64,000 nt of DNA from the NCBI GenBank assembly GCA_037176885.1, contig JAWWNJ010000161.1:1-64000 (forward strand), written 5' to 3'. This stretch comes from Favolaschia claudopus (lineage: Eukaryota; Basidiomycota; Agaricomycetes; Agaricales; Mycenaceae). A model generated the notes under the pieces. It ran no database searches and was not told the DNA's origin. It saw only the letters and a program-made list of their open reading frames with translations. This document shows positions 10,534-47,541 of this stretch, piece by piece; positions within the stretch are counted from its first letter, which is position 1, and each line of letters opens with the position of its first letter. Position numbers and translations under genes: made by a program.

Positions 10534-10736
10534 AACTCACGAAACAAGGGCGGGGGACAAACATATGAAAGGGGCGGGGTTGAAGTTGCAAAAGGGCGGA
10601 ACAATTCTCCGCCCCTTTTATAGTCACCGGTGAGAATTGGGGCGGAAAGTGCCGAAAACACCTCAAAGAAGGGCGGAACGGCCGAAAAAGCCGATGTTCG
10701 GGGCGGCACAATTAAATGTGCATCCGGACCGCCATA
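10534..10736 (-). repeat. Right terminal inverted repeat of the 1.9-kb element
   Basis: Inverted partner of 8835-9035. It directly abuts the F-box exon, whose frame reads a few codons into the arm before losing meaning. Confidence 0.85.
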
Positions 10737-27090: not shown

Positions 27091-28899
27091 TGAAACGGTG
27101 CGTGTAGGTGTAGGCGTGAAATATACCGAAATATAAAATCACAAAATCTAATCCAATACGACGTGTGTGTGTGTGTGTTCGGGGTGGCGGGAGCACGTAT
27201 CGTCCCTCAGAATACTTGGGCAAGCTTCAATCATCAAGGTCGCTACGTTTGAGCGGGACGAACTACTAGATTGTCTAGCGAGAACGTAGCGGGCAAAACG
27301 ATTCGCAGCGGGAGAAGCGAAGAGTCACTCTTTCTGAGACTTCGAAATGAGAAATTCTGAGTCTAGCGGGGAGGGTCTCCGTGCCAATAGAAAAGCGTCG
27401 CCCGGTAGTGGATCGTCAACCGGGAAGAAGCTTTCTGGATGGCAACCGGCGGGCAGAAGGCGCGGCTCAGCGGACGGGGTTCTTATTCAACTGGCGCGGC
27501 TCTGGCAAGGAGCGGGGCTCTTACGTCGATGGCGCGGACACTAACCAGTGGCCGGGGCACTTACACCACTACGCGGCGGCGAGCTCGAACGGGGGTCTTT
27601 GAATACCGCGGAACGGCAGGGCACACGGGGCGTCGACGGCGCGGAATCAAGCACGAACGGGGGTCTTTGAATACCGCGGAACTGCAAGAGACGGGGCTTC
27701 GTATTTCAGGAGGGCGCGGGCTCAAAGGCTGGCGGGGCTCTCAAAGTTCTGGCGGCTCGGTATGCCACAAGTCTTTCCGTATCACTCGAGTCTCTCTCAG
27801 ATATCAAGTCTAGTCTCTTTCAAAGCTTCAATTCAAATTCTAGAGTCCGCTACAAACTGCCCTTGTCTACGGGTAGGTAATTGACTGAGTAACAAAAAGT
27901 ACACCGGGAGATTAAATACATGCAGCGGGAGCAGAAACAACCAAATAAAATCATGATGAGAGACTGTCCAAGTTTGATGCCGCGCCCGCTGGGAACCAAT
28001 GGTATATTCAGGATTGCGAGTCGTGAGTGAAAAGACTGCCTCCCGGAGAAAGTCCATGCGGGCGGGTGGGTATTGCGCCTTATTGCAGTGCAATGGCGTG
28101 CTGGTTGCCATGTCCCCGGGAGGGGACACGAAATTCCTCCTTCATAATATGGTCCCGCCGCTGGTCGAGTTGAAGTCGAAAAGGCTCCCGCTGAGTAGTT
28201 AGTCAACGGCTCGACAGCGGTCAAGTTCGTCTCTTCCTCCATATTCAGAACAGTATAAGTCCCAGGGAAAATAGGGAGAGCCGAGCCGCGTTAGCGGCTC
28301 GCCACTCGCCGTTCGGGTTGTCCGCAATCAGCGGGAAATGCCCCCGGCAACTCGCCATGTCCTTCTCATCATTCTGACAGAGCCCGCTGGCTGGATAGCC
28401 GCTGGCTCCGCGGTGCTCCCGCTGGCAGTCGGTTAAGTCCCGGCTGTCCGTAATCAGCCGGCATGCTCGGTTAGGGCCTGCCGGTGATCCTGTTCGTCGA
28501 TAGAGTAGTGGCCGCCCTGAGTTCGAAGTTGAACTCAGTATGGTCCCCCGCTAGATCTTCTTCATGTTGGTCGGCGGGTGAGCGCCTAACCTCAGGGAGG
28601 TCGGTAGTTCCTCTTAGTCGCCTCCAGCACCTCGAGATAGTAGTTTCCCACCAAGTCCCTTGGCCCGGCAGTTTAGAAATAGTCAGCGGCAGAGTCTCGC
28701 ACCCATGTTAGGGAAACGTCGCTAAGCCGCTGCTACCCCGTTGGTGTCCCGCCAGCTTGTCGGCTATCCACAGCAATAAGATACTGCCCGCGAGGACGGG
28801 CATATCTTCTATTATCCTAACCTCACTTCTCCCGCTGATAGGTCTCGAAAATCGATAAATTCCGAGCATTTCATGCCTAGCCGTATAGCGGCCCTATCA
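27091..28899 (-). repeat. 3' LTR of the giant Gypsy element
   Basis: This 1,809-base copy includes a GT microsatellite (about 27161-27178), an internal direct repeat of about 30 bases starting CGAACGGGGGTCTTTGAATA (near 27586 and 27655), and the terminal dinucleotides TG and CA. Open frames inside it are repeated in the other LTR and are not coding. Differences from the partner are scattered substitutions plus single-base differences in homopolymer runs. Confidence 0.95.
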
Positions 28900-28912
28900 T
28901 CTCCCCCTTTCT
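28900..28912 (-). promoter_or_regulatory. Polypurine tract (second-strand primer)
   Basis: On the minus strand AGAAAGGGGGAGA abuts the TG start of the 3' LTR. A pure purine run in exactly this place is the standard plus-strand primer of Gypsy elements and confirms the element's orientation. Confidence 0.85.
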
Positions 28913-29590
28913 AGATTTTCAACTCTCCCGAGTTGACGACTTGTGATCGCCCGCTAGAGAACTGATCCATCTTCCCGGGGAAGGGGACTTCAAGACGAAT
29001 TCGTCTTGGAATAATTTAGATAACGAACGGGCCGCCAGTGAGGCCCGGTTCCCGCTCGTCCCCTTGGTATTCCATGAGAGCAAACCTTAACGAAGGACTC
29101 GAGGCGACCTAATTTTAGATCCCCACTCTACCTCCGTTGACAGTTTTCTGGACTCAACTTCTCGCCGCGGCCGGCGATGCCGTCACTTTCATTATGAGGC
29201 GTCATTCCTGCCTTTTTCGGAAGTACATCAAATTAGAGAAGCGCTTGAATCAAACTTTAACCCTGCGCTCTCTAAAGCCGCCCTATTCATCCGCAGTTTG
29301 GAATGTTTTGGATCAAAGAAGCCTCGGGGACCCCCCGCTTCTTCATTCAAATGTTTTTCTCTGAAAATCTCTCGAGAATCCCATCAAACATTCAAACTCC
29401 GACTCCTCAGGGTATAAAGAGTCGAGAGGTTTCTGGGTGGATTCCCCACCGATTCCCCGATTGGGTACCCCCTTGCCCTCTTTCCCCTTCGTTTAATCTT
29501 TCTGTCTTTCGCCCGCCGACCGGATTTCTGGCGCTTTGCACCGGGGAGCTCTTCCTCACTTCGCTCATTTCGTGACGCTACACCCACGGG
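28913..29590. promoter_or_regulatory. Leader/promoter region of cargo gene A
   Basis: Gene-free stretch between the 3' LTR and cargo gene A. TATAAAGA at 29413-29420 lies about 170 bases before the ATG of gene A and would be its TATA box. Confidence 0.4.
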
Positions 29591-32500
29591 ATGGCCTCCA
29601 AACCAAGCGGCAGTTCTGCCTCTCGCCCTAATTCTCGCTCTTCTCGTCGCGCCCCCCGCAGCTTCTTCTCCACCGCCGGTCCCTCGCAAACAGTTGTCTG
29701 GCCCTGGGCAGCCGCCCGCCGCATCGTCTTCAAAGTCGACCAAACTTCCTCCGCCGCCGCTGGAGTCTTCTAGTGTAGACTGGTTCGCCGTATGGCGCAA
29801 CAGGCCGGAGGAGTGGAAGACTCTGCAGGAGCTTCTCGTCCCGTCGAAGCTCGCGAACTACTCCCAATCTGGAATCGGCAAGATGCTCCGCTCCATCCAG
29901 GAGCCGCTGGTGAGTTTTCATCGGCTGTTTATTCTTTCAGTTTGTTAACTTCTTTCTAGAGGGAGCACCGGGCGATCTTGGGGGTTGCCCAGAAAGGCCT
30001 CGAGCCGCCCCCGATGGCCCTTGCCATAAGCGTCCACCTCCAAAAAAGCCATACAGATGTACGACCCGGAGGAGCACCTGCCCGATATTCAGGCCCTTCG
30101 CTACCGCAAGACCGAGCTCAAGCAAAAGAAGGTGCGCCCCCACCAGTAACTTTCTTGGCTCCGCTGCCGCTGATCGTTCAACCAGCTATTCTTCCCCCCG
30201 GCCCCGACCAAAACTATGGAGGCTTTTCCCATACCGCCGCCTCCGACGACCCAGCTCTTCGTTCCCCAGAGGACCAAAGCCGCCTTGGTGAGTTTTGTTT
30301 AATTAATTTTTTTTTTTTTTACCGGGCGACTCTGACTAGGCTCTCCTTTTTAGGCTGCGTCTTCGTCTGGCAAAGTTAGCGGCAAGGCCGCACCCGCCGC
30401 CAGTGAGTCTGGTAAAGTCAGCGGCAAAGCCGCCGCCGCGGCTGCTGAGACTGGAAAAGTCAGCGGAAAAGCCGCCACCAAGGTAAGTCGGGGCAACCGC
30501 CAATCGCTTCTCTTTCCAATTCTTTCATGTAGGGGGAGGACACGCCCCGGCCCAAGCCAAAGAAACTCCCGAATTTCACGAAGACGGTGAGGTTCTTCTA
30601 GTTTATCTTGATTCTTGCCGGCTGATCGTTCGTGTCCAGACCACATCTACCACCGACGATCCCAAGCCCGAGCGGGTCAAAGTGATCAAGAAGACCATCA
30701 AGGTCCCCGCCGAAACCCCAGTCGCCAGCGGCAGCGGCATCAAACGCAAGGTCTCAACCGGCGCCGAGTCGTCCCCATCCAAAAAGGCGAAAGAGGACAA
30801 GGCGGCCAAGGACAAAGCGGGCAAGGCCCCGTCTCGTAGTCAGGTAGTTGTCGCCCGCTGCTGTCCCCAATGTAAGGCCGACATAGAATTAACAATAAAC
30901 TTCTCGTAGTCTGTCATCAGCGTCCCAAGCTCCAGCGATGAGCGCGTCCCCGCTCCCGACTTCGAAATTCGTAAGTCAGTCCAACGCCGCCTGCTTTCTG
31001 CGCTGAAAATCTTCCCTTAGTGATAGAGACCAAGCCGCCCGCCACTCGAAAGAGCAAGAAGGCTAAGCCCGCCACCGTCGACACAGTGCCCTCTCTCAAA
31101 GGGCTGGGCACCCGTTGCCGCTCAACTCGCTGCCCTGGAGGGCGTCGGTATCAAACCGGCCAAGCCGGCGAGTTCCTCTTTCTACTGACGGGGAATTTCC
31201 TGGCTAACTTCCCGCGTTCCCTCTTTTAGCTTCCCGAGCAGCCCATCAGGTCGATGGAGCCGATCAAGAAGAAGAGCAAGCCTCGCCCCGAGGGGGAGTT
31301 CAGGCCGCCGAACAAAGACGTCATGAACAAGCTGTTCACTAATTACCCCGCAAGCCGCTCGCCGCCAGGACCTCCCGTACGACCCCGAGAAGGAGCAGTT
31401 CGCTTTGGTCGCTAATCACCTCATTGGCAATCTCGAGCTGAACGTCGCCCATGTAAGACAGCTTTTTTCTTCCCTGATTATTTTCTCTCCTCAATCTTTT
31501 TCTATCTAGAACGGTCCCCGCTGCCTGCGGTGCATCGCCTGCGGCAGCAAGTGCGAATCCACCGGCGTCCCCGGCGAGTGCACGGCCTGCGCCAGCCGCA
31601 AGTCCACAAAGGACTGTACTTTCCTTCTCGACGGCGAAAAGATCAGCTCCAATGGGCTCCGGGCTGAAGCAATGGGTCTCGATGACCCGGCCCGTAAGTC
31701 AACCACTACTTTCCCGTTTAGGCCCGCTGACCATTTCAACAGAGTGGTTCGACTTGAACGCCGATGTCAACCACCGCCGCGGACACCTGTTTCGCCATCC
31801 AAGACGCTTTCGAGAAGGCGCGCTGGAATTTGAACCAGAAGTCCTTCAAGATGCTTTCTCTCTGTCTTGGTCACCCGCCGGGAGATCCAGCGGGAGGATT
31901 TCATCAAACGCTTCGCCGGCGAGACCACCGAGGAGCAGGAGAAGAACATGGACCAGGTCTTGCGCATCGCCATGACCCAGGGGTTGACCGCTTCGTCGAC
32001 TATCAAGTCGAACCGCCGCTGGCAATATTACCCTGGCGAGGTCCTCGACGAAGTCCCTATCCCCGGCTTCGAGGACGCCTATGCCTTTTACGAAGCCAAG
32101 GACCGCCAGGACCAAAATGTCCCGCTCGCCTTCTACCTCATCCCGGCTGAGCCTGAACTCTCGATTCCGACACAGTGGGTCGAAGTGCAAGTAAGTCCCA
32201 TTCTTTCTTTACATTATTCTTCCGGGCCGCTGACCCTCTTATTCCCATAGCCGGAGGACTGCGTGGACCTCTTCCACGACTTGAAGGAGAGGACGCCGCT
32301 GAAGAGATCCCCGACGGCTCGAAAGTCCGACAGCGCCTCCTCCTCGACGGTAAGGGTCCGATTAATCTCGACCCAGACGACGAAGACGGCAATGTCTTGC
32401 CTTACAGCTGGGAGCACAAGAGCGTGCCCGGCTTTTTCAAGATGTTGTACCGTAAGGGTACGTTCTTCGAGATCCCCGACCCGCCGCCACCAGAGCCGAA

Positions 32501-33082
32501 GCGCAAGGGCAAGTCCAGCGGCAAGGTGAAGTCTTCTTCCGTGGTCCACGACGACGCCGACGACGAGTTCAAACCCGACCCGACTTCCCAAGAGGAAGAC
32601 ATGGGTGAGGCCCCGGACGACCGTACGTTACTTCTTATCTCTTCTTTCTAATTCATTGCTAAAGTCAACTTCTCCCGCTAGCCATGGATATTTCCCGCCC
32701 CGCCAACTCCTGAAAAACGCCCAAAGGGCAAACAGCGGGCAGTCGAGCCGCCCGTTCCTTCTTCGAGCGAAGAAGAGAACGACGAGTCCGGCGAGGTGGG
32801 GTGCACCCGCTTTCGACGACTTCCTAGCTCAGTCGTTTGCGCCAGGACGGGTCCAGCGGCGAGGAGGACAGCGAGGCCGAGGTACGCGGAAGCGTCCAGG
32901 GGGAAGCCGACGAGGAAGACGACAGCGATCTCGAGGAAGTCGAAATCCCCGGGACTGCCGATTTCGCAGCCAGCGGCGAGGAGGACGTTGGGCCAGAAGT
33001 TGACGCAGTGGGCGAGGAAGATGCCGATGGGCACCTTCCCGATCATCCTGGTCCTTCGGGCGACGACGCGGTCGAGAGCTGA
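29591..33082 (+). CDS. Antisense cargo gene A: Lys/Ala-rich protein with a Zn2Cys6-like cluster
   Basis: The start is the ATG at 29591. At least ten short GT-AG introns can be read (for example 29913-29960, 30132-30185, 30288-30353, 30483-30532, 30587-30639, 30844-30909, 30971-31020). The N-terminal part has VDWFAVWRNRPEEWKTLQEL. A disordered middle carries repeats of SGKVSGKAA and basic runs (RKSKKAKP). The exon starting near 31511 encodes C-x2-C-x6-C-x8-C-x2-C-x8-C (starts CLRCIACGSKC). Acidic and basic tails follow, ending near 33082. Two frame breaks fall in homopolymers, a C6 near 29655 and an A6 near 30042; shortening either by one base restores the frame. The product looks like a nuclear, nucleic-acid-binding protein (inference). 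It runs antisense to gag-pol. Confidence 0.65.
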
Positions 33083-33888
33083 GCGGGTAAGCACGCTCCC
33101 CCTTTCTGGAGTCTTATCTCCCCGCTGACCATCTTTACAGCTTTTCCTCGTGGGTGGGCGGGCGGCAAGTAAGCGATTCGCCCGACCTCCCCGCTGCCTT
33201 TGACTTCACGCTGAATTCTTTCTAGAAATTTTTCTGTATTCATAATCGCGGGGCCGAGCGGCCCCCAAAAATCATCAAAAGCTACGGGCACGGGTCCCAT
33301 AACCCCGCTTCTTGCGAAGAGTCTGGCCTGGTAGAAATCTACCCGCCAGTACTCACAAAAATAAAAATAATTTAGATTCAAATCAAGTACCCCGCGTAGA
33401 GTAGCATCGTGTACCGGCCAAAGAGCCGACGAAATGTAAAAATAAAAGTTTTTACGATGCACTCTTTCTTTGTGTGAAAAATCCTTAAGTTCTTTTCGAG
33501 TTCCGAAGTCAGAGTCCCCGGCTAGAGCCTCTAAGTGATTTGTAAGAGTCTGAAGCAAAAGATTCCAACCAAGTGCTGCGCCCCGTCGGCTGAGTACGAC
33601 TTGGAGAGCGAGCTGAACACTCGGACTTTCGAGTTTTTCAACATGCCGAGCGGCAACGGTGCTTATCAGCGGGATCATCAGATAGCGGGGAGTGCCCGCG
33701 GCTTCTCTTCTAGCCGTCAGCGGCTGTCCTCGGATTCCACCGGGTGACTAGTTCCTCACTTCTCCTGCTGGTCTCGTAAGAGCGATAACGTAGAGTAGAA
33801 TCGGCCCGGCGGATCGAGTTACCCGCTACCGTACTTGTAGTCGATAGGGGTAGATAGCCAATCAAATCATCTTTTGCTTTCAATTGTC
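33083..33888. other. Spacer between cargo genes A and B
   Basis: AT-rich stretch with an A/T run near 33355-33375. A 211-codon minus-strand frame crosses it and overlaps the 3' end of gene A. I read it as non-coding: no domain is visible and it opposes a better-supported gene. Confidence 0.4.
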
Positions 33889-34631
33889 ATGCCTCAGCCC
33901 ATAGGGGAAGTCTTAATCGACTACCATTCCTTCCCGGCTGTCAGTCAAGACTTTGTGCGCAAGATTTACACTGTGGTAGGTCGTCTTCAGCCCATTTCTG
34001 CGCCAAGTCCAACCAGCCGCTAGCCGAATCTCGTCTGCACGCCCTGTAGTGACGCCGGCGAAGACTGTGAATTTCTCCACTGGGGCTCGAAGTGCACTCG
34101 GTGCCGGGAGGCGAAGGTCCCCAAGTGTCTGTTCACCGGGGTGGATTGGTTCAAATTTACCTATCCATCTTCGACCTTTCCGACACTTTTCATCTATCGC
34201 AGCGGTACATCCAGCCGCTCCTCAAATTCTCATCTTTCTTATTCCATTCAGGCGGTACTTTATACGACCTTGCATTCCTTGAACTCTGGTACCACCTGCG
34301 CCTCGGCGGCTTAAGCCTCGATATGTTCATGGGCTCGGTGGACGGTGAGCCCGCTGACTTTTTACGTCGGCGGGAGGAATTTGCCGGCGACCTTCGTGAC
34401 TGGGACATTGCTCACGACCTGTCTCGTGCCGCTCACTCCAGCCGGCGGCTGTATTTCTACAACATCCTGTCTCGAGTTTTACGCGAGTGGCGCGCTCAGG
34501 ATCGTTCGATCCATGCCCAATGCGACGTCGACGCAGCTATCTCTCTTCATGATGTCAGGCGGCGGGACGCTCATGTTCCGACCTTCGTGCCCTTGACCCA
34601 AGGCACGCGCCGCCAGACCTTCGAGCAATAA
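33889..34631 (+). CDS. Antisense cargo gene B: Zn2Cys6-like small protein (intact)
   Basis: Three exons splice cleanly: 33889-33975, 34024-34204 and 34252-34631, giving 215 codons plus a TAA. Exon 1 (29 codons) ends in phase 0 just before the cysteine module. Exon 2 (181 bases, ends in phase 1) encodes C-x2-C-x6-C-x8-C-x2-C-x7-C, with EFLHWG between the third and fourth cysteines. Exon 3 encodes a helical region (LAFLELWYHLRLGGLSLDMF, then SRRLYFYNILSRVLREW). The Cys spacing equals the GAL4-type Zn(II)2Cys6 pattern, but the usual basic run after the second Cys is weak, so DNA binding is only inferred. Paralogue of genes C and D. Confidence 0.8.
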
Positions 34632-34803
34632 TCCAGGCTAGTAGCTTTTCCCCGTTAGGGTCAAATAAATCTCTTTGCCCGGCTGCAAGCCGTTATCGTG
34701 ATGTCTGATTCCATCTGAGCTTTTGGTCCGGCAGCCGGTGGTACTCACCCGTCGGCTATAGATTTTACTTATAGCGGCCGGTGCCCAGTGAGTCCTTCGA
34801 GCG

Positions 34804-35474
34804 ATGCCCGCCTTTTCTTTGGCAGCGACTTTTTACTCAGAACGCTTTAGGAGCTTTACCGGTCCCTCAGAGTACCAGCTCGTACTTCAAGCTCAGTTCG
34901 TGGGTCTTTCGTTCTTTCTCGGTGCTCTCCCGCTGACGGGTGCCCCTTCTTAGCCGGAGTACGAATGCCAGTGCTGCCTCAAGAACTACCGCCATTGCAT
35001 CTGGATTCAGTGGGGTGAAGCCTGCCTCAGCTGCATGTTCATAGGTCGCGCCGCCTTGTGCTGCTACACTAAGAAGTCCGTCTGGCAGGCCGAGAACAGC
35101 CGTCGTCGCGATACTCTTCTAGCCTCTCAGCCAGGCAAGTCTGCTTTCTCTCTTTCTACCTCTCGGCGGAGGCTTACTGGATTTTAGCTCCCTCCGCCGG
35201 GCGGATCGCTCAGTTTGACTGGTACGCCAGGGCCGCCGCTGCCCGATTCGACGAGAAGTTGTACATTGATGTGCGTACTTGCACCATCCTCGCCGCCAGG
35301 TCCATGCTCGGCACCCTTGGGTTTGGCCAGCTACGCTTCTTGTATCGGCTGTGGTTTGACGCGAAGGGGGCGGGCATGCGAAAGGAAATTGTAGATCTCC
35401 TCCGGGATAGGTTAGACGCTGTAGCTCTCCAGTCCGGCGCAAGGCTCCCGCCCGTTATGTTCATCGGGCCGTAA
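34804..35474 (+). CDS. Antisense cargo gene C: Zn2Cys6-like small protein (intact, GC-AG intron)
   Basis: Exons 34804-34899, 34954-35134 and 35188-35474 give 187 codons plus a TAA with no break. Exon 2 is 181 bases and ends in phase 1, exactly as in gene B. It encodes C-x2-C-x6-C-x8-C-x2-C-x8-C (starts CQCCLKNYRHC, with WGEAC). The second intron has a GCAAGT donor, a rare GC-AG type, and ends TTTTAG. Exon 3 is helical (AQFDWYARAAAARF, then FGQLRFLYRLWFDA). The shared exon structure and module show common origin with B and D. Confidence 0.8.
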
Positions 35475-35757
35475 GCGTAGTAGGAAATATATTCCCACTG
35501 TCAAACGAACTTGCATCTTAAAACTCTGTTTCAAGCTGCCCGATTAGGAAGGCTTCTTAGAAACCAAGCTTCCTCGTGTTTTTCGCTCAGCGGGAGCTCA
35601 GCACCTCGTTGGATATTCCACATGTATTGCGGATCTTCCGGGGAGCGTCGGGTGCAATGAGTCCCACCGTCGATCTCTATGTTTTTGGGTCTCCCGCCAG
35701 GTCTCAGAGGGGTATTTAAGCTGGCGGGAAGGTCCCATTTGCTTCAGTCGTCTACTC

Positions 35758-36413
35758 ATGTCTTTGCTGGAAAATCCACTCTTTCCGAATGACCCCGTCG
35801 GCCCGCTCAGGGAGTACTATGTACGTTCCTGAACATTTTGCCTCGGGTATTTCCTCATCATTCGGCAGCCTGGCCGGGTATGCTCTGCGTGCCTCAACGC
35901 CCGTTCTCATTGCGAGTTTACTGAGTGGGGAGCACCGGTGTACCCGCTGTTTCTTGCTGAAGCACAACTGCTCGTACACTCAGACCGCTGAGCTGGCCGA
36001 TGAAATAGCTGCCCGCCGCACCGTTTCAAAGAGGGTCCCGATCGTAAGTGACGACTTCTTTCTTATCTGTTGCGCCACAACTGATCCCCCGCTCGCTTCT
36101 AGCGGCTACGAAGGAACAGCTTGCTGCTTGGGACGTCGTTCACGAGGGGACCTTGGCGCAGTTCCCATTCTGGCAACAATACCATGCTGTAATCGTTGGT
36201 CGCAGCGTCGCAGAGGCAACCCAACGGCTGTCTTTTTACTTCGAGGCCCGCCAGGTTTTCCATCTTCTGCAAGAGGCCAAAACGGCTAATCTCCCGGCTG
36301 CGTATGTTGCTGTTATCCGCGAGCGGTTAGACGTTCTCGCAAATAATCTTTTCCTGGATCTTCCGGCTAGGATGCGGGCAGTGTACGATACAGGCACATG
36401 TACTCTCGGATAG
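35758..36413 (+). CDS. Antisense cargo gene D: Zn2Cys6-like small protein (frame break in the module)
   Basis: Exons 35758-35820, 35869-36043 and 36103-36413. TATTTAAG at 35713-35720 is a fitting promoter element. Exon 2 encodes CSACLNARSHCEFTEWGAP, then, after one extra base near 35935-35940 (CCGG), CTRCFLLKHNC, giving C-x2-C-x6-C-x8-C-x2-C-x6-C. A second compensating shift is needed before the donor at 36044. Exon 2 is 175 bases, six fewer than in B and C and ending in the same phase. Exon 3 encodes EQLAAWDVVHEGTLAQFPFW and a helical tail to a TAG at 36411-36413. Either a decayed paralogue or two base-level errors. Confidence 0.65.
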
Positions 36414-36810
36414 TTCGTTCCGATAACACACGCTCCCGCCCCATGTGAGGCCTTGGAAACATTTATTTCTTGGTAAAGATGTGCCCGCTGCCCTCAAATG
36501 ACGTGCTGGGTGACCCACCTCTCCCCCTTTCAGAAATCTCAACTGTCCTCAGTTGATCGATCAGAGGAAATTCAGGTCCCCCGGCAGCAAATTTTCGTGC
36601 CACGGAACGATCGGGCGCGTTTGAAATAATTTTCTGCGCCACCGGCGGGGTGCATCTACCATAAATGGTAATCCAAGTTCGGCCGTTGTCCAAATTTCGT
36701 CCAAATTATCCTTACGGCGTTATATTACGGCCGCTCGAGTATAAGAAGCAGCGGGCGGACGGGTCTACTCCCCAGCCTCGTCTACTGTCTTTACTCTGCT
36801 TCCTTCAAAA

Positions 36811-38056
36811 ATGTCTCAAAACGATTACAACACCGTCAAAGCCGATTTCCTCAAGGCTATGGACGTTGCCGCCAACCTCGTCAAGTATTCGCCGCCTGAG
36901 TCTCGTAAAAACCAGCTCAAGGACGTCGCCGAGATTCTCGTAAGAGCCGCCGGCTACTTTGACCAGCCTCGTTTCGCTAACATTATTCTTTCATTCGTAG
37001 GCGCGCCTTCCCCCGCTCATGCCTTTCATCTTGGAAGACAAGAGCGCGGTTCTTCGTGAGGCAATCTTCACTTCGCGTGAATATTACCACACCTTGTACG
37101 ACCCGGATGGTAAACGGGACGTGTCCTTCCCCGCTGGGTACGATGCCCTGCGGCGGATCACCAAGGCCATTCACGAAGACCGTTCCAAGAAGGCGATCCC
37201 GCCTGTCTCCACCGTTTCTTCTTCCAAGGGGACCCGGGTCGGTTTCACTAGCTTTTATTGCCGTGCTCGCCATTGACTCACAATCATCCCCCGCTAGAAG
37301 AGTACTCGCGAGCGGTCTCAGGGTGAACCCGAGTCTGAGGACGAGGACGAAGGCACCGTTCGTGCTCCGTCGCCCGCTCTCACCACCGTTGGTGCTGACG
37401 AGGTTCGTTCTTTCATTTAACAGCTGGCCTGTGTAGAGCTGACGATTGATACTTCTATCATCGCCGTCGGGTGTTTGTTCACCCAGATGCTCGTTGACGA
37501 TGAGCATGTCCCTGCTCCCAAGGCTCCCCCTACCGGTCCCAAGGCTAAGTCAGCCCCTGGCGGGCAAGAAGGGTGTGCGCGCTGTAAGTCGCCCGTTATT
37601 TCTGCTTTTCAATTTCATTCATTCATTTCATTCTTTCAGCATAGCCCGGCCCCCGCTAAGAAGGGCAAGGGTAACAAACGCGCCCGCATCGACAGCGTCC
37701 CGTTCCACGAGGACTCTTTCCTCACCCACGGTGAGTTTCCCGTTCACTGTCAGTGATTCCTCCCGCTGAGTGTTTTCGTAGCGACGGCTGAGTTTTACGC
37801 TTCGGCACCCGCTTCAGGTGCCGTTGTCGACGAGGCCGCTAGCGTCGTTGAGATGGGTACCGAGTTCATGAGCAACCACCTTGCCTTGCGCAAGCGGATG
37901 TATTTCATCATGGTCGAGCTGGCGGTCATCCACGAGAACCTTCGTAGCTCTCTGGCCCGGCGCGAGCAGCTCCTCGACGAAGGGGAGAAGATCTCGGCTC
38001 GTCTTCGCGACTTCCCCGAGTCCTCCTCTGCCGGCGTCGATGCTCATGTTCCCTGA
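36811..38056 (+). CDS. Antisense cargo gene E: helical, charged nuclear-type protein without the Cys module
   Basis: ATG at 36811, with GTATAAGAA about 70 bases upstream. Exons are 36811-36939, 37001 to about 37240, about 37300-37399, about 37486-37583, about 37641-37730 and about 37780-38056. The N-terminus reads DYNTVKADFLKAMDVAANLV, then EYYHTLYDPDGKRDVSFP; gene A has a similar YDPEE stretch. An acidic run (ESEDEDEG), a basic stretch (KKGKGNKRARID) and a C-terminal coiled-coil-like helix (ENLRSSLARREQLLDEGEK) follow. One break at GGCGGGC near 37560 is repaired by removing one G. Resembles gene A without the cysteines. Function unknown. Confidence 0.65.
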
Positions 38057-38279
38057 CTCGTTCCTAAAGAGCTCCCCCCAGCGGGTCCCCCTTTCTTCAG
38101 AATCCTCGGTACTGGCTCAATCGTTTCGGACACCTCACGGCTCATCCTTCTGCTGGCCGCCACACACTCCCCGGGTGCGCAACTTAGTCGCTGCTTACTG
38201 GCGGGAGATGCAGACAATCCAATTACTTAAAGACTTCGAATCCCGTTTCAAATTGTAACGTAGATATCGTAGCAGTAAT

Positions 38280-39602
38280 TCATTTCCGCGCGGCGGCTTT
38301 TGTGGCAGAACGAGTCTTTCGTTTGAAAGGCAGCGGCTCATCCGTGTTAGGTTCCTCTTCCTCTTCTTCTTCCTCGGGCAAGGCCTCCTGCAGAGCTGGC
38401 TCTTCGGTCAGCCGCCCCGCTGGGGGTCAACCTCACATTCCCGAATTGGAAGTCATCCCCAGAATAACCGTCTTCCTCCTGGACCATCTTTTCCAGCGTC
38501 TCGGCCGAGAGGTCGATTAAGTCGTGAATGTCAGCGGGCAGCTTAATTGAGCGCCGCTGCTCGAAGGGGACGACCCTGAACTGAGCAATCTTCGATTGAA
38601 AGACAGAGCCGTCCATCTCCGCTACGATATAACTTCCACCTTTCGTACGACGGATGATAATTACTGGTCCCAGGTATCTGGCGGCCATCTTCGTATTCAG
38701 CGACTTCTCGACGGTCGTATTCCTGATGAGCACCAAGTCTCCCGGCTCGAAATGGTAATCTTCGATAGTGTGTTTATGCGCTATCTCATACCGGCGTAAA
38801 TTCGCTCGTTTCTCGTCGGTGACCCGCTCCCTCATCTGTTCGACGTGAGTGGCGTGCTTAGCCAAGGCCTGGGCTCGATAACCGATTAATTCAGCGGTCG
38901 TCAGAGTCCCGCCGGGCAGATGCCACTAGCCAAGTCGCTTCTTCTATATCCAGCGGGAGGATCGGATGTGCGCCCGTTACCATAAAGTAGGGTGAACAAC
39001 CTGTTCCTCGTCGAATAGTGACCCGGTCAGCCCACAACATCTGCGGGAAGAACCAGTACCACTTGCTGGGATTCCCGCCAGTAGCTTTCCATAAGGATTG
39101 CCTCATCGAGAAGTGCCCATTTTCGATTTTCCCGTTGGCTTGAGAATTGTACGGCGAAACTCTAATATTCCTTATGCCATACTTAGACTCAAGGTAGGCC
39201 ACAGCCGCTAGGAAGGCCGGTGCATTATCTGTCACCAATTCCTCCGGGCAGCCCCACCTACAAATCACATCTTCAAGTAAGAACAAGGCCAATGTTCTGG
39301 CATTCTCATTCTTTATCGGCCGCGCTTCTATATAGCTGCTGAGGGGAGCAGCGGGCGTCAACAATTTTGTTGAAGCCGTTGGAAGGGGTTCCAACGACCA
39401 TCACGTCGACGTGTACCACCTGGAAGAGCGAAGGGGTATGGGTGACAACGGGCGGGATCTTTAATAAAGTCCTTTGCCTCAACTGACACAGTTCGCAAGT
39501 TTTAATATACCAGGTGACGTCGCGCTCCATCTCAGGCCACCAGAAACGCATTTCTATCAAGGATTTGGTAGCGAAGGACACCGCGGTGGGCCAGGCTATC
39601 AT
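38280..39602 (-). CDS. Gypsy integrase (C-terminal part of Pol)
   Basis: Catalyses insertion of the cDNA. The zinc-binding part shows CELCQLR near 39490. The catalytic core shows VVHVDVMVVG, VTDNAPAF and GKIENGH, giving the D, D and E residues. The C-terminal domain has YLGPVIIIRRTKGGSYIV, a GPY/F-like fold. A frame break lies near 39306-39394. Another is a G4 run near 38415. Beyond it the frame continues into LPEEEEEEEEPNTDE and a basic tail (KRKTRSATKAAARK), ending at 38280. The acidic and basic tail may target chromatin (inference). Confidence 0.85.
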
Positions 39603-39750
39603 GAGCCGCCCGCATCATATACATTCGGTGATCTTTGTCTACCACCCAACTGATGTGCACCCCCCGTTGAGGATTTATGATAGAGTTTTCCATCTGCGTC
39701 CTCAAAGAAGCCGGTGGCGAATCGCAAGAAGGCTTTGTATTCCTTGTCGT

Positions 39751-41910
39751 TCATGCCAGCCGGGCGAGCCAGGGTATTCCCGCCGCCAGTCCCTTCATGA
39801 GGAGCAGCCGCTCGTCCGCTAGCTTCGCTGCTACCGATCGTTGGTCTTCAGAATACGGTTCCCGCTTCGTCGGGTCGTATTTCAATTCGAGGTCAGGGAT
39901 CAGCGGCTCGCCGTCTGGCTTGTCGTCACCCTTTGACTGAGAGAAGACTTCGAAAACATATTCTCTACCAAGGCGGGTGTAAGCCCAAGCCTGTTCGGCG
40001 TCGTTCTCGAAGTCAGCGGCTGACTGGGCCTCATCTCCCGCCAATTCAGCTACCATATATCCACCTCGAGTGTCAATATCGTGCTTGAAATCCTCGAAAT
40101 TCTTGAGAGGCGGCCAAGCACTACTTTCAGGATGAAGACCCGGCGGCTCGTTATTATCGAACTCGTCCTCTGGATGATCATACTCTGGATCCCCCGGCTG
40201 AATACGCCGGCGGGAGAGTCCATCTGGCCCGAAAGTCTTGCCCGGTACATGCTTCAGAGTGAAATGAAACATCAGGATCTCCTCAATCCAGCGGTTGATC
40301 GTAGCGTTGGGCCCCATTCCCGGGTGATCCAACATGCCCTTGAGGTACTGAGCGTCGGTTTCGACGACCAGCTTGCGGCAGCCCAACAGCCAATATTGCA
40401 TGTGGGTCTAGCGCCCTCTTCAAGCCAAACAATTCCCGCTTGGGCTGAGAATACCTCGACTCCCGGTCATTCAAAGGTATGGAGCTGAAGCGGGCATAGT
40501 AACCGCTTATTTAGGTCCAAAGGATCCCGCTGGGTACACATGCACCCCAACTCCAAGGTACGACGTATCGACCGCCAGTACCACTTCGGTGTCCCATTCA
40601 TATCTTATAGGTCTAAGCGCGGGACATTCTCGCAAAGCCTTCTTCAAAACTTTCATGCATGCGTCTTGGGCCGGGCCCCACTCGAATATGACTTCCTTCC
40701 GGGGTGAGCTTCTGAATCGGCTCAGCCTTGACTGTATAGTCTTGGATGAACATTCTCATAACGCCCACAGTTCCCAGGAAAGCTTTCACATCGTGGAAAT
40801 CCTTCAGCGGACCCCAACGCTCAATGACGCCGATTCTATCTTCATCCGGGCGCATGCCCTCGTATGAGCAGACATGGCCGACCACCTTAAAAGTTCCCCG
40901 GCAAATCTGCAACTTCTTCCCGCTTACAGTCGCCCCAGAATAGGCTAGCCGGGTAAGTACCCGGTTGCAGTCTACCAAGTGTAACCACACAAAGACCCTT
41001 ATCAGCGGGTTCTCAGGGATGGTCTCGTACGTCCCGTCAGGCTTTTCGTATCGAGTGAAGCCGCCGGGCGACAGGCACGTCGTCTATATACGGCCGGGTA
41101 ACCGCAGGAATTTCATCTCGCAGGATGTAAGTTACGTCTTCGTGGAAGATCGGCACCGAGTTGGTCCAACCCTGCGGCAATCTTACCAATCGAAGCGCAC
41201 CAAACGGAGTCTGGAAGGTTGTGTAATCTCGAGATTCCGGGTCAATCAGCCGGTGGTTGTACCCAGAGTAAAGATCAAACGTGGACCCCACAAGCCCTTC
41301 CCGCGAAATGTTCGGCCAGATCCGCGGCGCCGGGAGGCACCCCAGAGTGTGCAATGGTTACCGCGTTCAGCGGCTCCAGTGAATGCACTAACCGAATTGA
41401 CTTCTTATCACTCTTCAGAACTCCAAAGTACTTGGTGCGATACGAGCCATTGGACGGTTCATATATATTGGCATCGATACTCGCCCTAAGCACCTTGCAG
41501 ACTTCTTCCAGCTGTCCTGGCGGGATGGGAATATTTCTCTCCACCCAAACCTTATGGTCTGGCTTCACCGGGAACTTAACTGGCGGGAAGAAATCCGTTC
41601 TGAAAGTTCCTCTTTCGCTGTCATCCCATGCTACCGTATTTTCGTGTATAGATAACATATGATGAACCAGCTTCATCTCTTCATCATTCAAGAATCCATC
41701 GTTATGCAGTTCGTCTACAACCGCCTTCCTCCCCGCAGTGTATCTCCCAACGGGAACGAATTCTGGCGGGTGAGGGTCTAGCGGGACGAGGTTCTGCAAT
41801 GGATCCCCGATGATATTCCTTTCTATCCTGAACTCGGGAGGGAGCGGCTCGAGGACCGGCTTTACTTTTAGCGCTACCGGTTTATACTTCTTCGAGAACA
41901 CCTCCTTCAC
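39751..41910 (-). CDS. Gypsy reverse transcriptase and RNase H region of Pol
   Basis: The RT palm is read in segments 41275-41910 (KYFGVLKSDKKSIRLVHSLE), 41037-41354 (FDLYSGYNHRLIDP and the catalytic YIDDVPV near 41075-41095) and 40613-40990 (connection/thumb, with DVKAFLGTVGVMRMF). RNase H-like sequence with VETDAQYLKGML follows at 39751-40401. Frame breaks fall near 41300, 41000 and 40400. All expected Gypsy RT landmarks are present, so the element is young or only lightly damaged. Confidence 0.88.
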
Positions 41911-41917
41911 CTCGACT

Positions 41918-42382
41918 TCAGGCGGGGTGATCCTCGGGAATGATTTCCTCCATCAAAGCGACTTTCGTCTCATTGTGTTCAAACCCGGGTACTACCCAAT
42001 CGGCGTAGTCACAGCACTGACAGCGCTCCCCCGCTGAATGACGAGATTGCTCTTGCCTAACCGACTCGATATCGATGCCGGCAGTCATGAACACAGCGGC
42101 CGGATCCTTCAGTTTTTCTCTGACTTTGTCCGTTATGTTGGCTACGATAGCCACATAGGATTCGCCGACTTCTTTTCCTTCTGTCAGCTGCTCGTTGTAT
42201 TCTTGGAATAACTGAGCAGCGGGTTCATCATCAATCTCTGGCATGGCAGCCGCCAGGTAGGCCATTTTCGTCTCGGCCATCGAAAATCCCTCTTCTCCAG
42301 ACTTCATCAAAGCGCAAATTCTAGGAACATTATTCTCGTCCAGTTCTATCTGAACCGCTAATTCTCCTTGATGGTTAATCAA
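41918..42382 (-). CDS. Linker between protease and RT of Gypsy Pol
   Basis: A 154-codon frame collinear with Pol, without a named domain. It joins the protease to the RT and overlaps both neighbours by a few bases in other frames. Confidence 0.5.
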   Translation of the reverse strand: MINHQGELAVQIELDENNVPRICALMKSGEEGFSMAETKMAYLAAAMPEIDDEPAAQLFQEYNEQLTEGKEVGESYVAIVANITDKVREKLKDPAAVFMTAGIDIESVRQEQSRHSAGERCQCCDYADWVVPGFEHNETKVALMEEIIPEDHPA

Positions 42383-43548
42383 CTCCTCGAATTCTGAAAA
42401 TTTTGCTCCTCTTGGCTGCTCGGCTGCTCAGCCGGTGATGCGTCGTTCTGGACGCGCCGCACCTGTCGCCGCTGGCCTCTGGGGAAGGTAGGGACGACCA
42501 CCCGCTTCTGCGTGGAGGGGTCGGTCAAAGTCAGGAACTGGTTCCCGTCAGAGGTATTTTTGATGCCGCTGGCGGTCAGGATTTCGAAGGGTCGCCCCAA
42601 CAGCACCTTGTAGGCCGGGTTTCGTATGACATGCACTTGAAGGTACACCGTCATGTCACCGAACCTGAAGGGGACGTTCCTTGCCAGACCGACTGACTTC
42701 TCGGTTTGCCCGTTGGCGCTCATCATGTGGATGCAGTTATCTGGGTCCCAGCTGACTCCTAGTTCGGTGGCTACCGACAGGGGCCATGGACACGATCTGC
42801 GATCCACCGTCCAGAATACATTCAACTTCAGCGGCGCCGTGAATGAGCGGGGAAGACCACTCTCAGGGCCGCTGATTCTCCGGCAGAAGCATTGTCGGAG
42901 ATGGCGACGAAGACATCCCTTACCGGCTCTCCCTCCACTATCGACTGCCAATATTGGACTACTGGGTCGACGGTGATCAGGGCTCCCGCTGGCATAAGTC
43001 CGTCGGCCGCTGTCGCGACCTGAACTATTACCTCGTAAGGTAGGTCCTCTACGGTTACGCTGGAGGACTCGTCATCTTCGTCGGCCTCTCTCTCTGCGTG
43101 GCTAATCAACTGTTCTAGGGTTACTCGAACAGCGGGCGAGACTCTCTTCTTCGAGAGCAACGCCTTAGCCTGGCGCAGCAACTTCGGGCTGAGGGCGAAC
43201 AGTCTCCCCAGCGGGAGAGCTATTTCCAGGTTTCCGAAGATCTCCTTTATCAAGGATTCGACCTCCTCATCGTCCTGGTCCTCTACGGGCGGCCTTCAAC
43301 TCGTAGTTCTTTTCGTTGGCCACTAACGGCGGATCTCCCGCCGGCCGAACTCTAGGTTCGTTGGGCCTTTTGGCTGGCTTGACCGGAGGAACGTTCCTAT
43401 ACGGAAGCTCCGGCGGCTGAGCGCCATTTTGTTCTTCTGTCTCCTCCCGCCCTTTCTCCTTGGTTTCAACGATCGCCGGCTGTGCTTCGACAGCGGGCTT
43501 TCGCAGCGTCCTCGGCTTGTAGGGCAACTTCGGCATCACAACTTCCAT
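42379..43548 (-). CDS. Gypsy protease region
   Basis: Around 42780-42830 an alternative frame reads ILDGGSQIVSM, the retropepsin-like active site of fungal Gypsy elements. It is followed in the main frame by SVGLARNVPFRFGDMTVYL and the flap-side motif NPAYKVLLGRPFEIL. The upstream part (42828-43253, 43267-43548) is a charged, Pro-rich linker from Gag. Frame changes occur near 42830 and 43260. Confidence 0.75.
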
Positions 43549-43591
43549 TTTCTTTCCTACAGGCGGGCGTACTTGTCTGTTCTCCGGGGGC

Positions 43592-45565
43592 TTATCCGCA
43601 CTGGGTTTCCCCTTTGCCCCCTTCCTCGAACTCTCTAAAAATGCTCTCCTTCGGCGCTGTTCCCCGTTCGGGAGGGACCAGCCCCGTTGGGAGAGCGAGA
43701 GTTCGCTGAGACAGCCGCCAGTAGAATCGCAACAGCGTTGGCGTCGAATTGCGGCGGGGGAGGTTGGCTTTGATGAGCCACAAGGGGTGGTTGAACACCC
43801 CCTGAACCATGCGACTGGAGTTGCGTCACTTGCCGCTGGAGGTTTACTTGCTCAGCTCGCAAGGAAACCAATTCTTCTTCTCTCGGGTCATAGGTAGAAT
43901 TCCTCGTTCTGGCTGAACGCGGCTTGCGCGGCCTCCAGCTCCTGCTCGTCCATGTCAAGAACGGAGAGCTGAGCGAAGACAGACTGGTAGTTTTTGCGCA
44001 GCGGCCGTTGGTTGGGCGGCCGGGGCGGTACTCCTCTACCTGCTGCTTCTTGGACTTGTGCCCGTCTTTCGGGATAGGTATCCCATCGGGGAAACAGTCT
44101 CTGAACCCTACGACCTTCATCTTTCCACTCCCTATGTGGGCTTGCCGGATGAGACACTTATCTCTAAAATGCCCAAACTTGTCGCAATAAAGACACCCCT
44201 GATCCGCCAGGGTTCCCTTTGAATTGCACGGTAGGCATTCGCGGGTAAGACTGGGAGTCAGCGGCGCCTGGGACTCTGCCCGGTAGGGACTTATAGAAGG
44301 ACTCTAACTCAGCCATCTTCTTCTTGGTCGCGGCGTCGATCTCTTTTAATTGGGAGGTCTGATTATCCAGCCGCTCCATCATAGTGACGACCGACACCTT
44401 AATCGTCTCAAGAAGGGCCTTGTTAGGGTCCTCTTCTTCTTTCTTAATCGCAACGTTCGGATTCGGGAGAATCGACCGCCCGCTCGACGCTCGTCCAGAG
44501 CCGCTGGCGCTCTTTGACTTACTCGAGTAACCTCGATCAGAAGTGCCAAAGAACTCCGAGTTGGCGGGTCGAACGTTTCGCGATCTTTTTGGCCTCACTC
44601 ATGACTTCGGCCAGCGTCCATGAGCGGGGCGTCTGGCTCGTCGTCGTCCTCAGCGGGAGGTTTCCTCTCGAGATTCTCCAGGATTCGCTCTTTGAACTCG
44701 CGAGTCAATTTGGAGAAGAACATCGGGAGGGCTTCCCGGTGCGAAATCAAGTTCGAATCGAGAAGCTTGTTCGCCTCGACGTTCATGGTTCGCGTGAGGC
44801 GCATGAGCTCGTCCTCATCATCCCGGTCAATCCCCTCTTCAGCGAACTTACGAAGCTGCTTGTGCAATTTCTGCACAGAGCCCTTCTTCTGGTCGACGAC
44901 TGACGGGTAATTTTCCAGGATTTCTTTCTTAAAGTCGTCGAACGTCTTGGAGAACGAGTCGAACTGCCGCCACTCTTCAGCCGTAGCTTGAGCGGTGTGT
45001 AGCGGCAGACGAACTCGTTCTTCTTGTCGGCCGGCGTCTCATCTAATTCCATCATACGCTCCACATGGTCCAGGAAACGAACGAGTTCCTCCGGCTCATC
45101 TTCTTTGAAGAGCGGGGCGTTCCTGTCCCATGGTTCCGGCGCGCGCTTCTTTCCTCGGGCGACAGTATTATTGCCGTCTTCAGCCATTGGATTGTTTGAA
45201 GGGGTTGGTGAAGTTTGGAGTAGTGGTGAAGAGACAGACGAGAGAGTCGTTGACGACTGGGTAGCTGCACCGTCGGGCGTAACAGGTCTAGTGCCGGGCG
45301 GTTGAGTCGGGGTTTGTTGTTCCAGCGGAGCAGAGGGGCTCAACGACTGGGTTCTGCGGGCACGATAAGCTTGTGCTTGGGATCGTCCGCGCAGAGAATA
45401 GATTTCCCGGGCGAGAGCAACAGGCGGGAGGGAAGAATCGGCAAGTTCGAGATCGAGAGCAGCAGCAGCGGCGCGTAGGCTAGTGTTGGTAGATCGAGGT
45501 TTTGGTGGTGGTACTCTAGCGGATCGTCCTTCTGAAGCCACGTCTCCTCCGAAACTAAATGGCAA
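43592..45565 (-). CDS. Gypsy Gag (capsid/nucleocapsid)
   Basis: The first in-frame ATG is at 45185-45187 (MAEDGNNTVARGKK), though the open frame extends to 45565. A capsid-like stretch follows (EPEELVRFLDHVERMMEL), then after a break near 45000 a frame with EEWRQFDSFSKTFDDFKKEI and LRKFAEEGIDRDDEDEL. A CCHC zinc knuckle, C-x2-C-x4-H-x4-C (CLYCDKFGHFRDKC), lies at 44154-44195 across another break. The C-terminal part is Gln/Pro-rich with a heptad-like stretch (LRAEQVNLQRQVTQLQ). Confidence 0.8.
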
Positions 45566-45707
45566 AATCTTCTATCGCGGGCCTGGAGCTAAACGGCTCA
45601 ACGGGCGGGTGTATATTCTATTCTCGAGTCAACCGGCGGATGGTTCGTGCTAGTTTATAGCAGCGTCCACAAGTGATTTCTTTCGACTTGACACAAATAA
45701 TCTGTTA

Positions 45708-45728
45708 CCCCTCGCGGTGGGCTCCAGA
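45708..45728 (-). promoter_or_regulatory. Primer binding site
   Basis: Two bases inside the 5' LTR the minus strand reads TGGAGCCCACCGCGAGGGG. It begins with TGG, as expected for pairing with the CCA tail of a tRNA. The tRNA is not identified here; matching the reverse complement to host tRNA 3' ends would settle it. Confidence 0.7.
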
Positions 45729-47541
45729 TGAAACGGTGCGTGTAGGTGTAGGCGTGAAATATACCGAAATATAAAATCACTAAATCTAATCCAATACGAC
45801 GTGTGTGTGTGTGTGTTCGGGGTGGCGGGAGCACGTATCGTCCCTCAGAATACTTGTGCAAGCTTCAATCAATCAAGGTCGCTACGTTTTGAGCGGGACG
45901 AACTACTAGATTGTCTAGCGAGAACGTAGCGGGCAAAAACGATTCGCAGCAGGAGAAGCGAAGAGTCACTCTTTCTGAGACTTCGAAATGAGGAATTCTG
46001 AGTCTAGCGGGGAGGGTCTCCGTGCCAATAGAAAAGCGTCGCCCGGTAGTGGATCGTCAACCGGGAAGAAGCTTTCTGGATGACAACCGGCGGGCAGAAG
46101 GCGCGGCTCAGCGGGACGGGGTTCTTATTCAACTGGCGCGGCTCTGGCGAGGAGCGGGGCTCTTACGTCGATGGCGCGGACACTGACAGTGGCCGGGGCA
46201 CTTACACCACTACGCGGCGGCGAGCTCGAACGGGGGTCTTTGAATACCGCGGAACGGCAGGGCACACGGGGCGTCGACGGCGCGGAATCAAGCACGAACG
46301 GGGGTCTTGGTTATACCGCGGAACTGCAAGAGACGGGGCTTCGTATTTCAGGAGGGCGCGGGCTCAAAGGCTGGCGGGGCTCTCAAAGTTCTGGCGGCTC
46401 GGTATGCCACAAGTCTTTCCGTATCACTCGAGTCTCTCTCAGATATCAAGTCTAGTCTCTTTCAAAGTTCCAATTCAAATTCTAGAGTCCGCTACAAACT
46501 GCCCTTGTCTACGGGTAGGTAATTGACTGAGTAACAAAAAGTACAGCGGGAGATTAAATACATGCAGCGGGAGCAGAAACAACCAAATAAAATCATGATG
46601 AGAGAGTGTCCAAGTTTGATGCCGCGCCCGCTGGGAACCAATGGTATATTCAGGATTGCGAGTCGTGAGTGAAAAGACTGCCTCCCGGAGAAAGTCCATG
46701 CGGGCGGGTGGGTATTGCGCCTTATTGCGGTGCAATGGCGTGCTGGTTGCCATGTCCCCGGGAGGGGACACGAAATTCCTCCTTCATAATGTGGTCTTGC
46801 CGCTGGTCGAGTTGAAGTCGAAAAGGCTTCCCGCTGAGTAATTAGTCAACGACTCAACAGCGGTCAAGTTCGTCTGGTCTTCCATCTTCAGAACAGTCTA
46901 AGTCCCAGGGAAAATAGGGAGAGCCGAGTCGCGTTAGCGGCTCGCCACTCGCCGTTCGGGTTGCCCGCAATCAGCGGGAAATGCCCCCGGCAACTCGCCA
47001 TGTCCGTCTTATCATTCTGACAGAGCCGTTGGCTGGATAGCCGCTGGCTCCGCGGTGCTCCCGCTGGCAGTCGGTTAAGTCCCGGCTGTCCGTAATCAGC
47101 CGGCATGCTCGGATAGGGCCTGCCGGTGATCCTGTTCGTCGATAGAGTAGTGGCCGCCCTGAGTTCGAAGTTGAACTCAGTATGGTCCCCCGCTAGATCT
47201 TCCTCATGTTGGTCGGCGGGTGAGCGCCTAACCTCAGGGAGGTCGGTAGTTCCTCTTAGTCGCCTCCAGCACCTCGAGATAGTAGTTTCCCACCAAGTCC
47301 CTTGGCCCGGCAGTTTAGAAATAGTCAGCGGCAGAGTCTCGCACCCATGTTTAGGGAAACGTCGCTAAGCCGCTGCTACCCGTTGGTGTCCCGCCAGCTT
47401 GTCGGCTATCCACAGCAATAAGATACTGCCCGGGAGGACGGGCATATCTTCTATTATCCTAACCTCACTTCTCCCGCTGATAGGTCTCGAAAATCGATAA
47501 ATTCCGAGCATTTCATGCCTAGCCGTATAGCGGCCCTATCA
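45729..47541 (-). repeat. 5' LTR of the giant Gypsy element
   Basis: 1,813-base partner of 27091-28899, starting and ending at the same motifs. Transcription of gag-pol is expected to start within it and run leftward. The high similarity of the pair suggests a fairly recent insertion; an exact divergence needs an alignment. Confidence 0.95.

Follow-up and report, generated by a model that had tools for sequence, protein, structure and literature searches.

The window analyzed here is a stretch of 64,000 nucleotides from Favolaschia claudopus (assembly GCA_037176885.1, contig JAWWNJ010000161.1, positions 1-64,000 of the forward strand). It contains a Ty3/Gypsy-type retrotransposon of 20.5 kb on the minus strand (27091-47541, read from 47541 to 27091). 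Five multi-exon genes, g1 to g5, lie on the plus strand between the integrase region and the 3' long terminal repeat (LTR), antisense to gag-pol. A sequence-only reading, made earlier from the letters alone, had described a minus-strand Gypsy element, and its LTRs, primer binding site (PBS), polypurine tract (PPT), protease, RNase H and integrase are indeed all found on that strand. The locus as a whole is probably best explained by a clade of fungal Ty3/Gypsy-type elements with resident antisense accessory genes between integrase and 3' LTR.

The window copy was compared with six other copies in the genome, designated C44, C55, C17, C73, C16 and C10. A splice-model search was run on each copy; the counts for g2 to g5 use exon borders common to the copies, and the frames of the window copy were judged at the same borders. 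Open models of g1 were obtained in five of the seven copies, with 13 exons in C17, C73 and C10 and 12 exons in C16 and C55. At the shared borders g2 is open in all six copies holding the whole gene (it is truncated in C55), and g3 in all six having the gene (it is absent from C55). g4 is open in 6/7 copies and g5 in 5/7, with exon 3 of g5 uncertain. Intron phases are 0 then 1 in g2, g3 and g4, and their second exons measure 181, 181 and 175 nucleotides. With lifted coordinates, 22 of the 23 introns read GT or GC..AG in every copy holding them; the exception, at 31694, shows GG..AG in six copies, and a deletion in the window copy that shifts the coordinate lift appears to be the cause. The models in the other copies, with mostly shared splice sites, support the five plus-strand genes at the coordinates first proposed, except that g4 ends near 36386 in intact copies rather than at 36413, and g1, g4 and g5 are broken in the window copy itself (Table 1).

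Pooled ratios of nonsynonymous to synonymous differences (pN/pS) across copies are 0.09-0.21 in the gene frames of g1 to g5 (g5, 0.09), and these frames have no internal stop in the reference copy. As a control, the two other plus frames gave 1.58-8.87 and two of the antisense frames 1.04-5.54. The remaining antisense frame gave 0.09-0.33, as expected because it shares wobble positions, but it contains 6-19 stops. Pairwise dN/dS (ratio of nonsynonymous to synonymous substitution rates; only pairs with more than 10 differences) was 0.11-0.15 for g2, 0.13-0.17 for g3 and 0-0.13 for g5; g1 gave 0.14-0.21 in nine of ten pairs and 0.44 in C16-C55 (22 differences). The pooled pN/pS values for gag, protease and pol were 0.14, 0.12 and 0.06, respectively. 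Divergence amounts to 1.06% at splice dinucleotides, 12.4% in intron interiors and 5.8% in exons. Chance open reading frames (ORFs) are ruled out by the frame controls together with the splice-site conservation. Judged from these substitution patterns, purifying selection on g1 to g5 is comparable to that on gag, which shows that the proteins matter. It is very likely that g1 to g5 are element-resident, spliced and selected antisense genes.

That other copies carry the same block, which the sequence-only reading had proposed to check, proved true: the block is collinear with pol in 6/6 other copies, one of them without g3. In this copy, C55, about 1.06 kb (34510-35573) is missing, comprising the end of g2 and the whole of g3; in C17, about 0.5 kb of inserted DNA lies near 42350. 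Both LTRs are present in 5/6 other copies, and the stretch of C10 stops before the 5' LTR owing to a 4.2 kb insert. The two LTRs of a copy differ by 1 substitution in C44 and C73, 2 in C17, 3 in C55, 9 in C16 and 36 in the window copy. Target duplications of 4 bp are exact in C44, C55, C17 and C73 (four of six testable copies); the target flanks of C16 and of the window copy are mismatched at one position each. Copies bearing the block moved recently, as indicated by the exact target duplications and by the LTR pairs of C44, C73 and C17, which are 1-2 substitutions apart.

The 4-bp target beside all 13 outer LTR ends read is NCGN (ACGG, TCGT, ACGG and CCGG, each twice; CCGA/CCGT; GCGG/TCGG; CCGG in C10), and this pattern suggests a CpG-centred integration preference. 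Contigs C9, C19, C34, C66, C71, C121, C171, C268 and C420 contain copies arranged head to tail at a spacing of about 18.65 kb, which probably share LTRs. Several contigs begin or end at one common element position; C9, C171 and C420 stop within g1, and C268 stops within the LTR. A telomere-borne element was considered and rejected, as four such contig ends have no telomere repeat. These ends look like assembly breaks in tandem arrays.

Table 1. Features of the retrotransposon, in positions of the window.
Feature	Position	Strand	Remarks
3' LTR	27091..28899	-	pairs with right LTR
Terminal hairpin and polypurine tract	28900..28936	-	abuts 3' LTR
g1	29591..33082	+	12-13 exons, 931 or 946 amino acids (aa); Zn2Cys6-like exon near 31510-31693; broken in window copy
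Third, weaker polypurine tract	33095..33131	-	between g1 and g2, without hairpin; from repeat scan
g2	33889..34631	+	3 exons, 215 aa, Zn2Cys6-like; open in window copy
g3	34804..35474	+	3 exons, 187 aa, Zn2Cys6-like; open in window copy
g4	35758..36386	+	3 exons, 173 aa, Zn2Cys6-like; broken in window copy
Internal hairpin (36539-36556) and polypurine tract (36520-36532)	36520..36556	-	repeat of terminal PPT module
g5	36811..38056	+	6 exons, 316 aa in C44; broken in window copy at shared borders
Reverse transcriptase-RNase H-integrase region	38347..42427	-	frame-broken in window copy; 1377 aa ORF in C44
Protease ORF	42379..43851	-	frame-broken in window copy; 489 aa in C44, C55
gag region	43635..45571	-	frame-broken in window copy; 642 aa ORF open in C44, C55
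PBS TGGAGCCCACCGCGAGGGG	45708..45726	-	2 nucleotides inside 5' (right) LTR
5' LTR (TGATAG...GTTTCA)	45729..47541	-	97.5% identity to left LTR

The element has the order protease, reverse transcriptase, RNase H and integrase of Ty3/Gypsy elements, as well as TG..CA LTRs running from TGATAG to GTTTCA, a PBS, a PPT and a short target duplication (not exact in the window copy). The LTR pair of the window copy is 97.5% identical over 1828 columns, a few flanking bases included, and the PPT AGAAAGGGGGAGA directly adjoins the left (3') LTR. The protease ORF of C44 matches PF13650 (Asp_protease_2, E=1.3e-5), and its pol ORF matches PF17921 (integrase zinc-binding, E=5.9e-18) and PF17917 (RNase H, E=1.1e-11); RVT_1 was found in the same ORF at E=2.2e-6, under its Pfam cutoff. 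A CX2CX4HX4C knuckle was seen by eye in gag, which has no match above cutoff in Pfam. Among the matches listed, the relatives of the pol protein include Mycena and Lentinula at 60-66% and the closest stand at 82-86%; a scan of IMG/VR with a related pol found none. The 17-mer of the PBS occurs 713 times in the genome (at most 1 mismatch), and no primer tRNA was found in 8 loci around it. In C23:31358-55790 this 17-mer stands eight times in a row, every ~3.49 kb, as a tandem array of another PBS-bearing unit.

The window copy itself is in a poor state. Comparison with the six other copies shows 70 1-bp indels that occur in it alone, of which 53 are insertions and 51 fall in homopolymers of three or more, and its gag-pol frames are broken into many pieces. 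It is probably a recombinant or decayed element, because the two LTRs stand 36 substitutions apart and the 4-bp flanks are unequal (GCGG/TCGG), as compared with the other copies. The 3610 bases of window 28091-31700 are 100% identical to C155:132644-136253, frame-breaking indels included, so the frame damage is at least in part common to separate loci; in the C155 copy the distance to the next LTR is not the same. Assembly error may be a source of the 1-bp indels.

By eye, the products of g1 to g4 show a Zn2Cys6-like six-cysteine spacing. The pattern of the Zn(II)2Cys6 family is C-x2-C-x6-C-x8-C-x2-C-x6..8-C. The motif of g2 to g4 reads C-x2-C-x6-C-x4-WG-x2-C-x2-C, and g1 has six cysteines in the same spacing without WG. 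The g5 product has a basic stretch and a possible coiled coil, also by eye. None of the accessory proteins g1 to g5 has a Pfam family above cutoff. No protein homologue was found for g1 residues 400-760 at E 0.001, nor for the g2-g4 alignment at E 1, in searches that miss distant relatives and exon-split predictions; g5 was not searched. A pol stretch gave 1162 matches in the same protein database. The g2-g4 alignment found nothing in PDB.

Related elements were sought with a Lentinula pol (P0079) as query; 36 pol places were scored out of 2132 first-look candidates in the genome, and 35 of these are without internal stop, with open frames of 1326-1396 aa. Three sister types, F92, F5 and F68, were read 9.5 kb beyond the integrase, one element each. 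All three have antisense genes between integrase and 3' LTR, and for this reason the antisense block looks, from the comparison of types, like an old trait of the element rather than a recent capture of host genes. Antisense ORFs within the blocks match between types in 15 pairs (E<=1e-3, 23-79% identity), some of which are overlapping frames of one gene. The g5-like pieces of F5 and F92 match at 41-79%, other matches among F68, F5 and F92 at 23-44%, and one match of 15 residues at 73%. Three further antisense pairs lie past the terminal PPT, within the LTR; two sense-strand pairs correspond to the integrase end and to the shadow of the g5-like gene. Both F5 and F92 have a gene just past the internal PPT, in the place of g4 in the window; that of F5 shows the six-cysteine WG pattern in full and that of F92 in part, and the best model of the F92 gene has intron phases 0 then 1, like g2 to g4. 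Compared with these two sister genes, g4 reaches a score of 37.3 and g3 one of 23.4, where the highest of 40 shuffles were 18.4 and 17.1, respectively. The 3' LTR of F5 was found beyond the block, starting at ~7129, by its match to a 5' LTR in stretch L033; the LTR starts of F92 and F68 are putative, placed from PPT-TGA near 7383 and 4227. Past the LTR start of F68 (L041 from 6385), a 1039 aa open frame, non-LTR reverse transcriptase-like by eye, runs to the end of the stretch.

The internal hairpin-PPT module separates g5, the gene on the integrase side, from the rest of the block. Three PPT-like 12-mers (at most 1 mismatch) are present in the block of the window, at 36520-36556, at 33095-33131 and near 38.1 kb, against a first-order Markov expectation of 0.24 on average and at most 2 in 300. 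Both in the window family and in the three sister elements, the internal tract comes after a hairpin whose loop reads GGGA or AGGA, and its letters match the terminal PPT of its own type in each of the four types. Six distinct hairpins have 42/42 cells paired, with 5/7 pairs changed on both sides (compensatory); this count leaves out the F92 internal stem (5 bp, extra T) and enters the identical terminal stems of F92 and F68 once. The internal module lies downstream of the sister pol in 33/36 places, at ~0.27-0.30 or 1.8-2.1 kb, and C92, one of the three others, has it by direct reading. Upstream of sister terminal PPTs, on the same strand and within 9.5 kb, it was found in 45/60. Its conservation suggests that the internal module is probably an extra priming site for plus-strand synthesis.

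In a first look at the whole genome, the 5' part of g1 gave 80 candidates, g4 gave 141 and a piece of the LTR gave 365; for each of the three, 40 candidates were scored. The 28-mer of the internal module occurs 127 times (at most 3 mismatches), and junctions of terminal PPT and 3' LTR 147 times at the same threshold; 100 of each were listed. At least 66 of the 100 listed junctions have an internal PPT upstream on the same strand within 13 kb, 63 of them at 6.5-7.7 kb. Synonymous divergence between C44 and C16 is 0.047 in gag and 0.29 in g2; between C44 and C17 it is 0.29 in gag and 0.034 in g2. Part of g1 (30.1-31.1 kb) is 15-20% apart between the window copy and C44, and gag and most of pol 1-2%. 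The discordance of synonymous divergence between gag and g2 shows recombination of the block and gag-pol as separate units.

The genes g1 to g5 would have their own promoters and give ordinary spliced mRNAs. As their introns are antisense to the genomic RNA and on the wrong strand for its splicing, reverse transcription would keep them; this argument of the sequence-only reading agrees with the conserved plus-strand splice sites. Its terms "cargo" and "vehicle for gene families" find no support, since no homologue was found within search sensitivity and the related antisense genes of the sister types point to accessory genes of the element's own. The proteins would most likely serve the spread of the element. 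The likeliest role would be a nuclear one, such as trans-acting control of the element's transcription, silencing, nuclear entry or targeting, because four products are Zn2Cys6-like and the fifth appears basic and coiled; parallels are the nuclear role proposed for plant antisense ORFs and that reported for the retroviral antisense protein HBZ. That the products are nuclear regulators is put forward tentatively, at a little under even chances. A bolder proposal, which we hold to be rather doubtful, is that the block is an antisense counterpart of the retroviral accessory genome: a spliced multi-gene cassette of zinc-cluster regulators whose two bounding hairpin-PPT modules would both prime plus-strand synthesis, allowing the whole cassette to be copied and exchanged among gag-pol backbones, with its introns kept through reverse transcription.

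Several alternatives were weighed. A one-off nested insertion is ruled out by the block in 6/6 copies and by borders without inverted repeats. Another account is that a mobile element or a piece of a virus nested itself long ago between integrase and 3' LTR and was then domesticated by the retrotransposon. It is unlikely: most of the block has no detectable origin and is bounded by duplicated PPT modules, but the block borders have no terminal inverted repeats, the gene nearest to the integrase lies outside the internal PPT, and the accessory proteins belong to no Pfam family above cutoff. Alternatively, the internal PPT could be only a relic that marks a former 3' end and stayed behind as the block was inserted between PPT and LTR. 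Compensatory changes that keep the hairpin paired, and internal tracts that match their own terminal PPT in all four types, make this account somewhat unlikely, even though the internal PPT stands at the block border in the window family and three sister types and, in the excerpt consulted, one extra linker PPT is described for Athila4 and Calypso (PMC2829016). Recent capture of host genes by one element (transduction), with the genes as passengers, would account for the ordinary fungal introns and for the resemblance of g2 to g4 to a tandem gene family with common intron phases; it is very improbable in view of the block in 6/6 other copies, the related genes in sister types, the purifying selection, and the lack of a homologue, within search sensitivity, for g1 residues 400-760 or the g2-g4 alignment. 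Selection on codons and splice sites makes it most improbable that antisense transcription itself matters, as regulatory RNA or double-stranded RNA, with the proteins secondary; the convergent layout would yield double-stranded RNA, as proposed for plant elements in the accessible part of PMC7264820.

Some results weigh against resident antisense genes with a regulatory role. Automatic gene models disagree between copies at some introns; single copies deviate at one intron of g2, g3 or g5, and most introns agree. No internal PPT is listed upstream of 34 of the 100 listed terminal junctions; for at least 6 of these the upstream side is cut away by a contig start no more than 3.1 kb off, and g4 is near five others (C9, C19, C34, C66, C121); copies of the element without the block may exist. 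PF00172 was found on g4 below its Pfam cutoff (E=0.053, 14.1 bits versus 21 needed), no homologue of the accessory proteins was found in the searches made, the role being guessed from the cysteine spacing, and AlphaFold gave no usable model for the largest exon of g1 (mean pLDDT 48). Among the sister types, the zinc-cluster-like gene of F92 retains only the WG-x2-C-x2-C part and one upstream cysteine, F68 seems to have neither g5 nor such a gene, g5 does not match its sister gene significantly by profile alone (21.9; shuffle maximum 21.1), and g1 has no match to the sister LTR-proximal gene, a comparison that says little as the F92 query is partly inaccurate.

Other features of the window were noted. 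A Helitron-like N-terminal domain (E=6.3e-17) lies at 3055-4026 on the minus strand, with 21-nucleotide tandem repeats nearby (5871-6038). An inverted repeat of ~208 nucleotides (8835-9041 and 10528-10736, 96.7% identical, ~1.5 kb apart) resembles the terminal inverted repeats of DNA transposons. An 81-nucleotide palindrome, 86% self-complementary, stands at 47769-47849, ~230 bp past the 5' LTR, and a probable host gene piece with DUF3638 and DUF3645 at 59831-61642.

No function has yet been agreed for antisense ORFs in LTR elements. Five genes with introns, many close copies and several sister types in one genome make selection, splicing, expression and recombination all testable here; the locus is also a clear case of strand choice carrying spliceosomal introns through reverse transcription, and the hairpin linked to the polypurine tracts could signal plus-strand priming. 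Published parallels are found in PMC7264820, PMC11963269, PMC6431247, PMC5408684, PMC2829016, PMC5371799 and PMC8365987, cited here from excerpts. Plant Gypsy elements such as Grande (gene23), RIRE2, Retand and PvRetro13 likewise bear ORFs on the strand opposite to gag-pol, located between pol and 3' LTR; these mostly lack clear homologues, and some products are nuclear or predicted to bind DNA (PMC7264820, PMC11963269). The precedent is wider than the single antisense ORF that the first reading had granted to plant lineages, as 104 antisense ORFs over 600 bp were counted in Retand representatives (PMC11963269). The word "intron" is absent from the main text of both papers as excerpted (PMC7264820, PMC11963269), whereas the present element has five genes and ~23 introns in one block. 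The Retand feature of an antisense ORF between pol and 3' LTR is present here, and no Pfam match to the other, TRP28 (PF04195), was obtained.

Boty-like elements of Botrytis reportedly carry an antisense gene, brtn (Zhao et al. 2011). They resemble the present element as fungal LTR elements with an antisense extra gene, one being named there, as far as the partial description goes, versus five here. Terminons have no LTRs. Rotifer Terminons and rotifer LTR elements also carry genes beyond gag-pol, but Terminons are Penelope-like, including their reverse transcriptase (PMC6431247), and telomeric, and the extra ORFs of the rotifer LTR elements are of env, DEDDy, GDSL, CC and TM types (PMC6431247, PMC5408684, in excerpt); the element described here has LTRs and a Gypsy-type RNase H and integrase. 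Sirevirus, Athila4/Calypso, Ty1 and HIV-1 likewise have an extra PPT that precedes the terminal one; in the present element both PPTs of the pair stand behind covarying hairpins of their own, whereas the upstream PPTs of Sirevirus are without inverted repeat in the excerpt consulted (PMC2829016). With fungal Zn(II)2Cys6 transcription factors g1 to g4 share the cysteine spacing; PF00172 stays under its cutoff (E=0.05), and g2 to g4 have a conserved WG between the third and fourth cysteine. The literature searches, made among open-licence papers, listed none that describes a fungal LTR element with an antisense block of several intron-bearing genes. By analogy, the block is like the antisense ORFs of Grande, Retand and brtn, but multi-gene and intron-bearing, and its function is probably regulatory.

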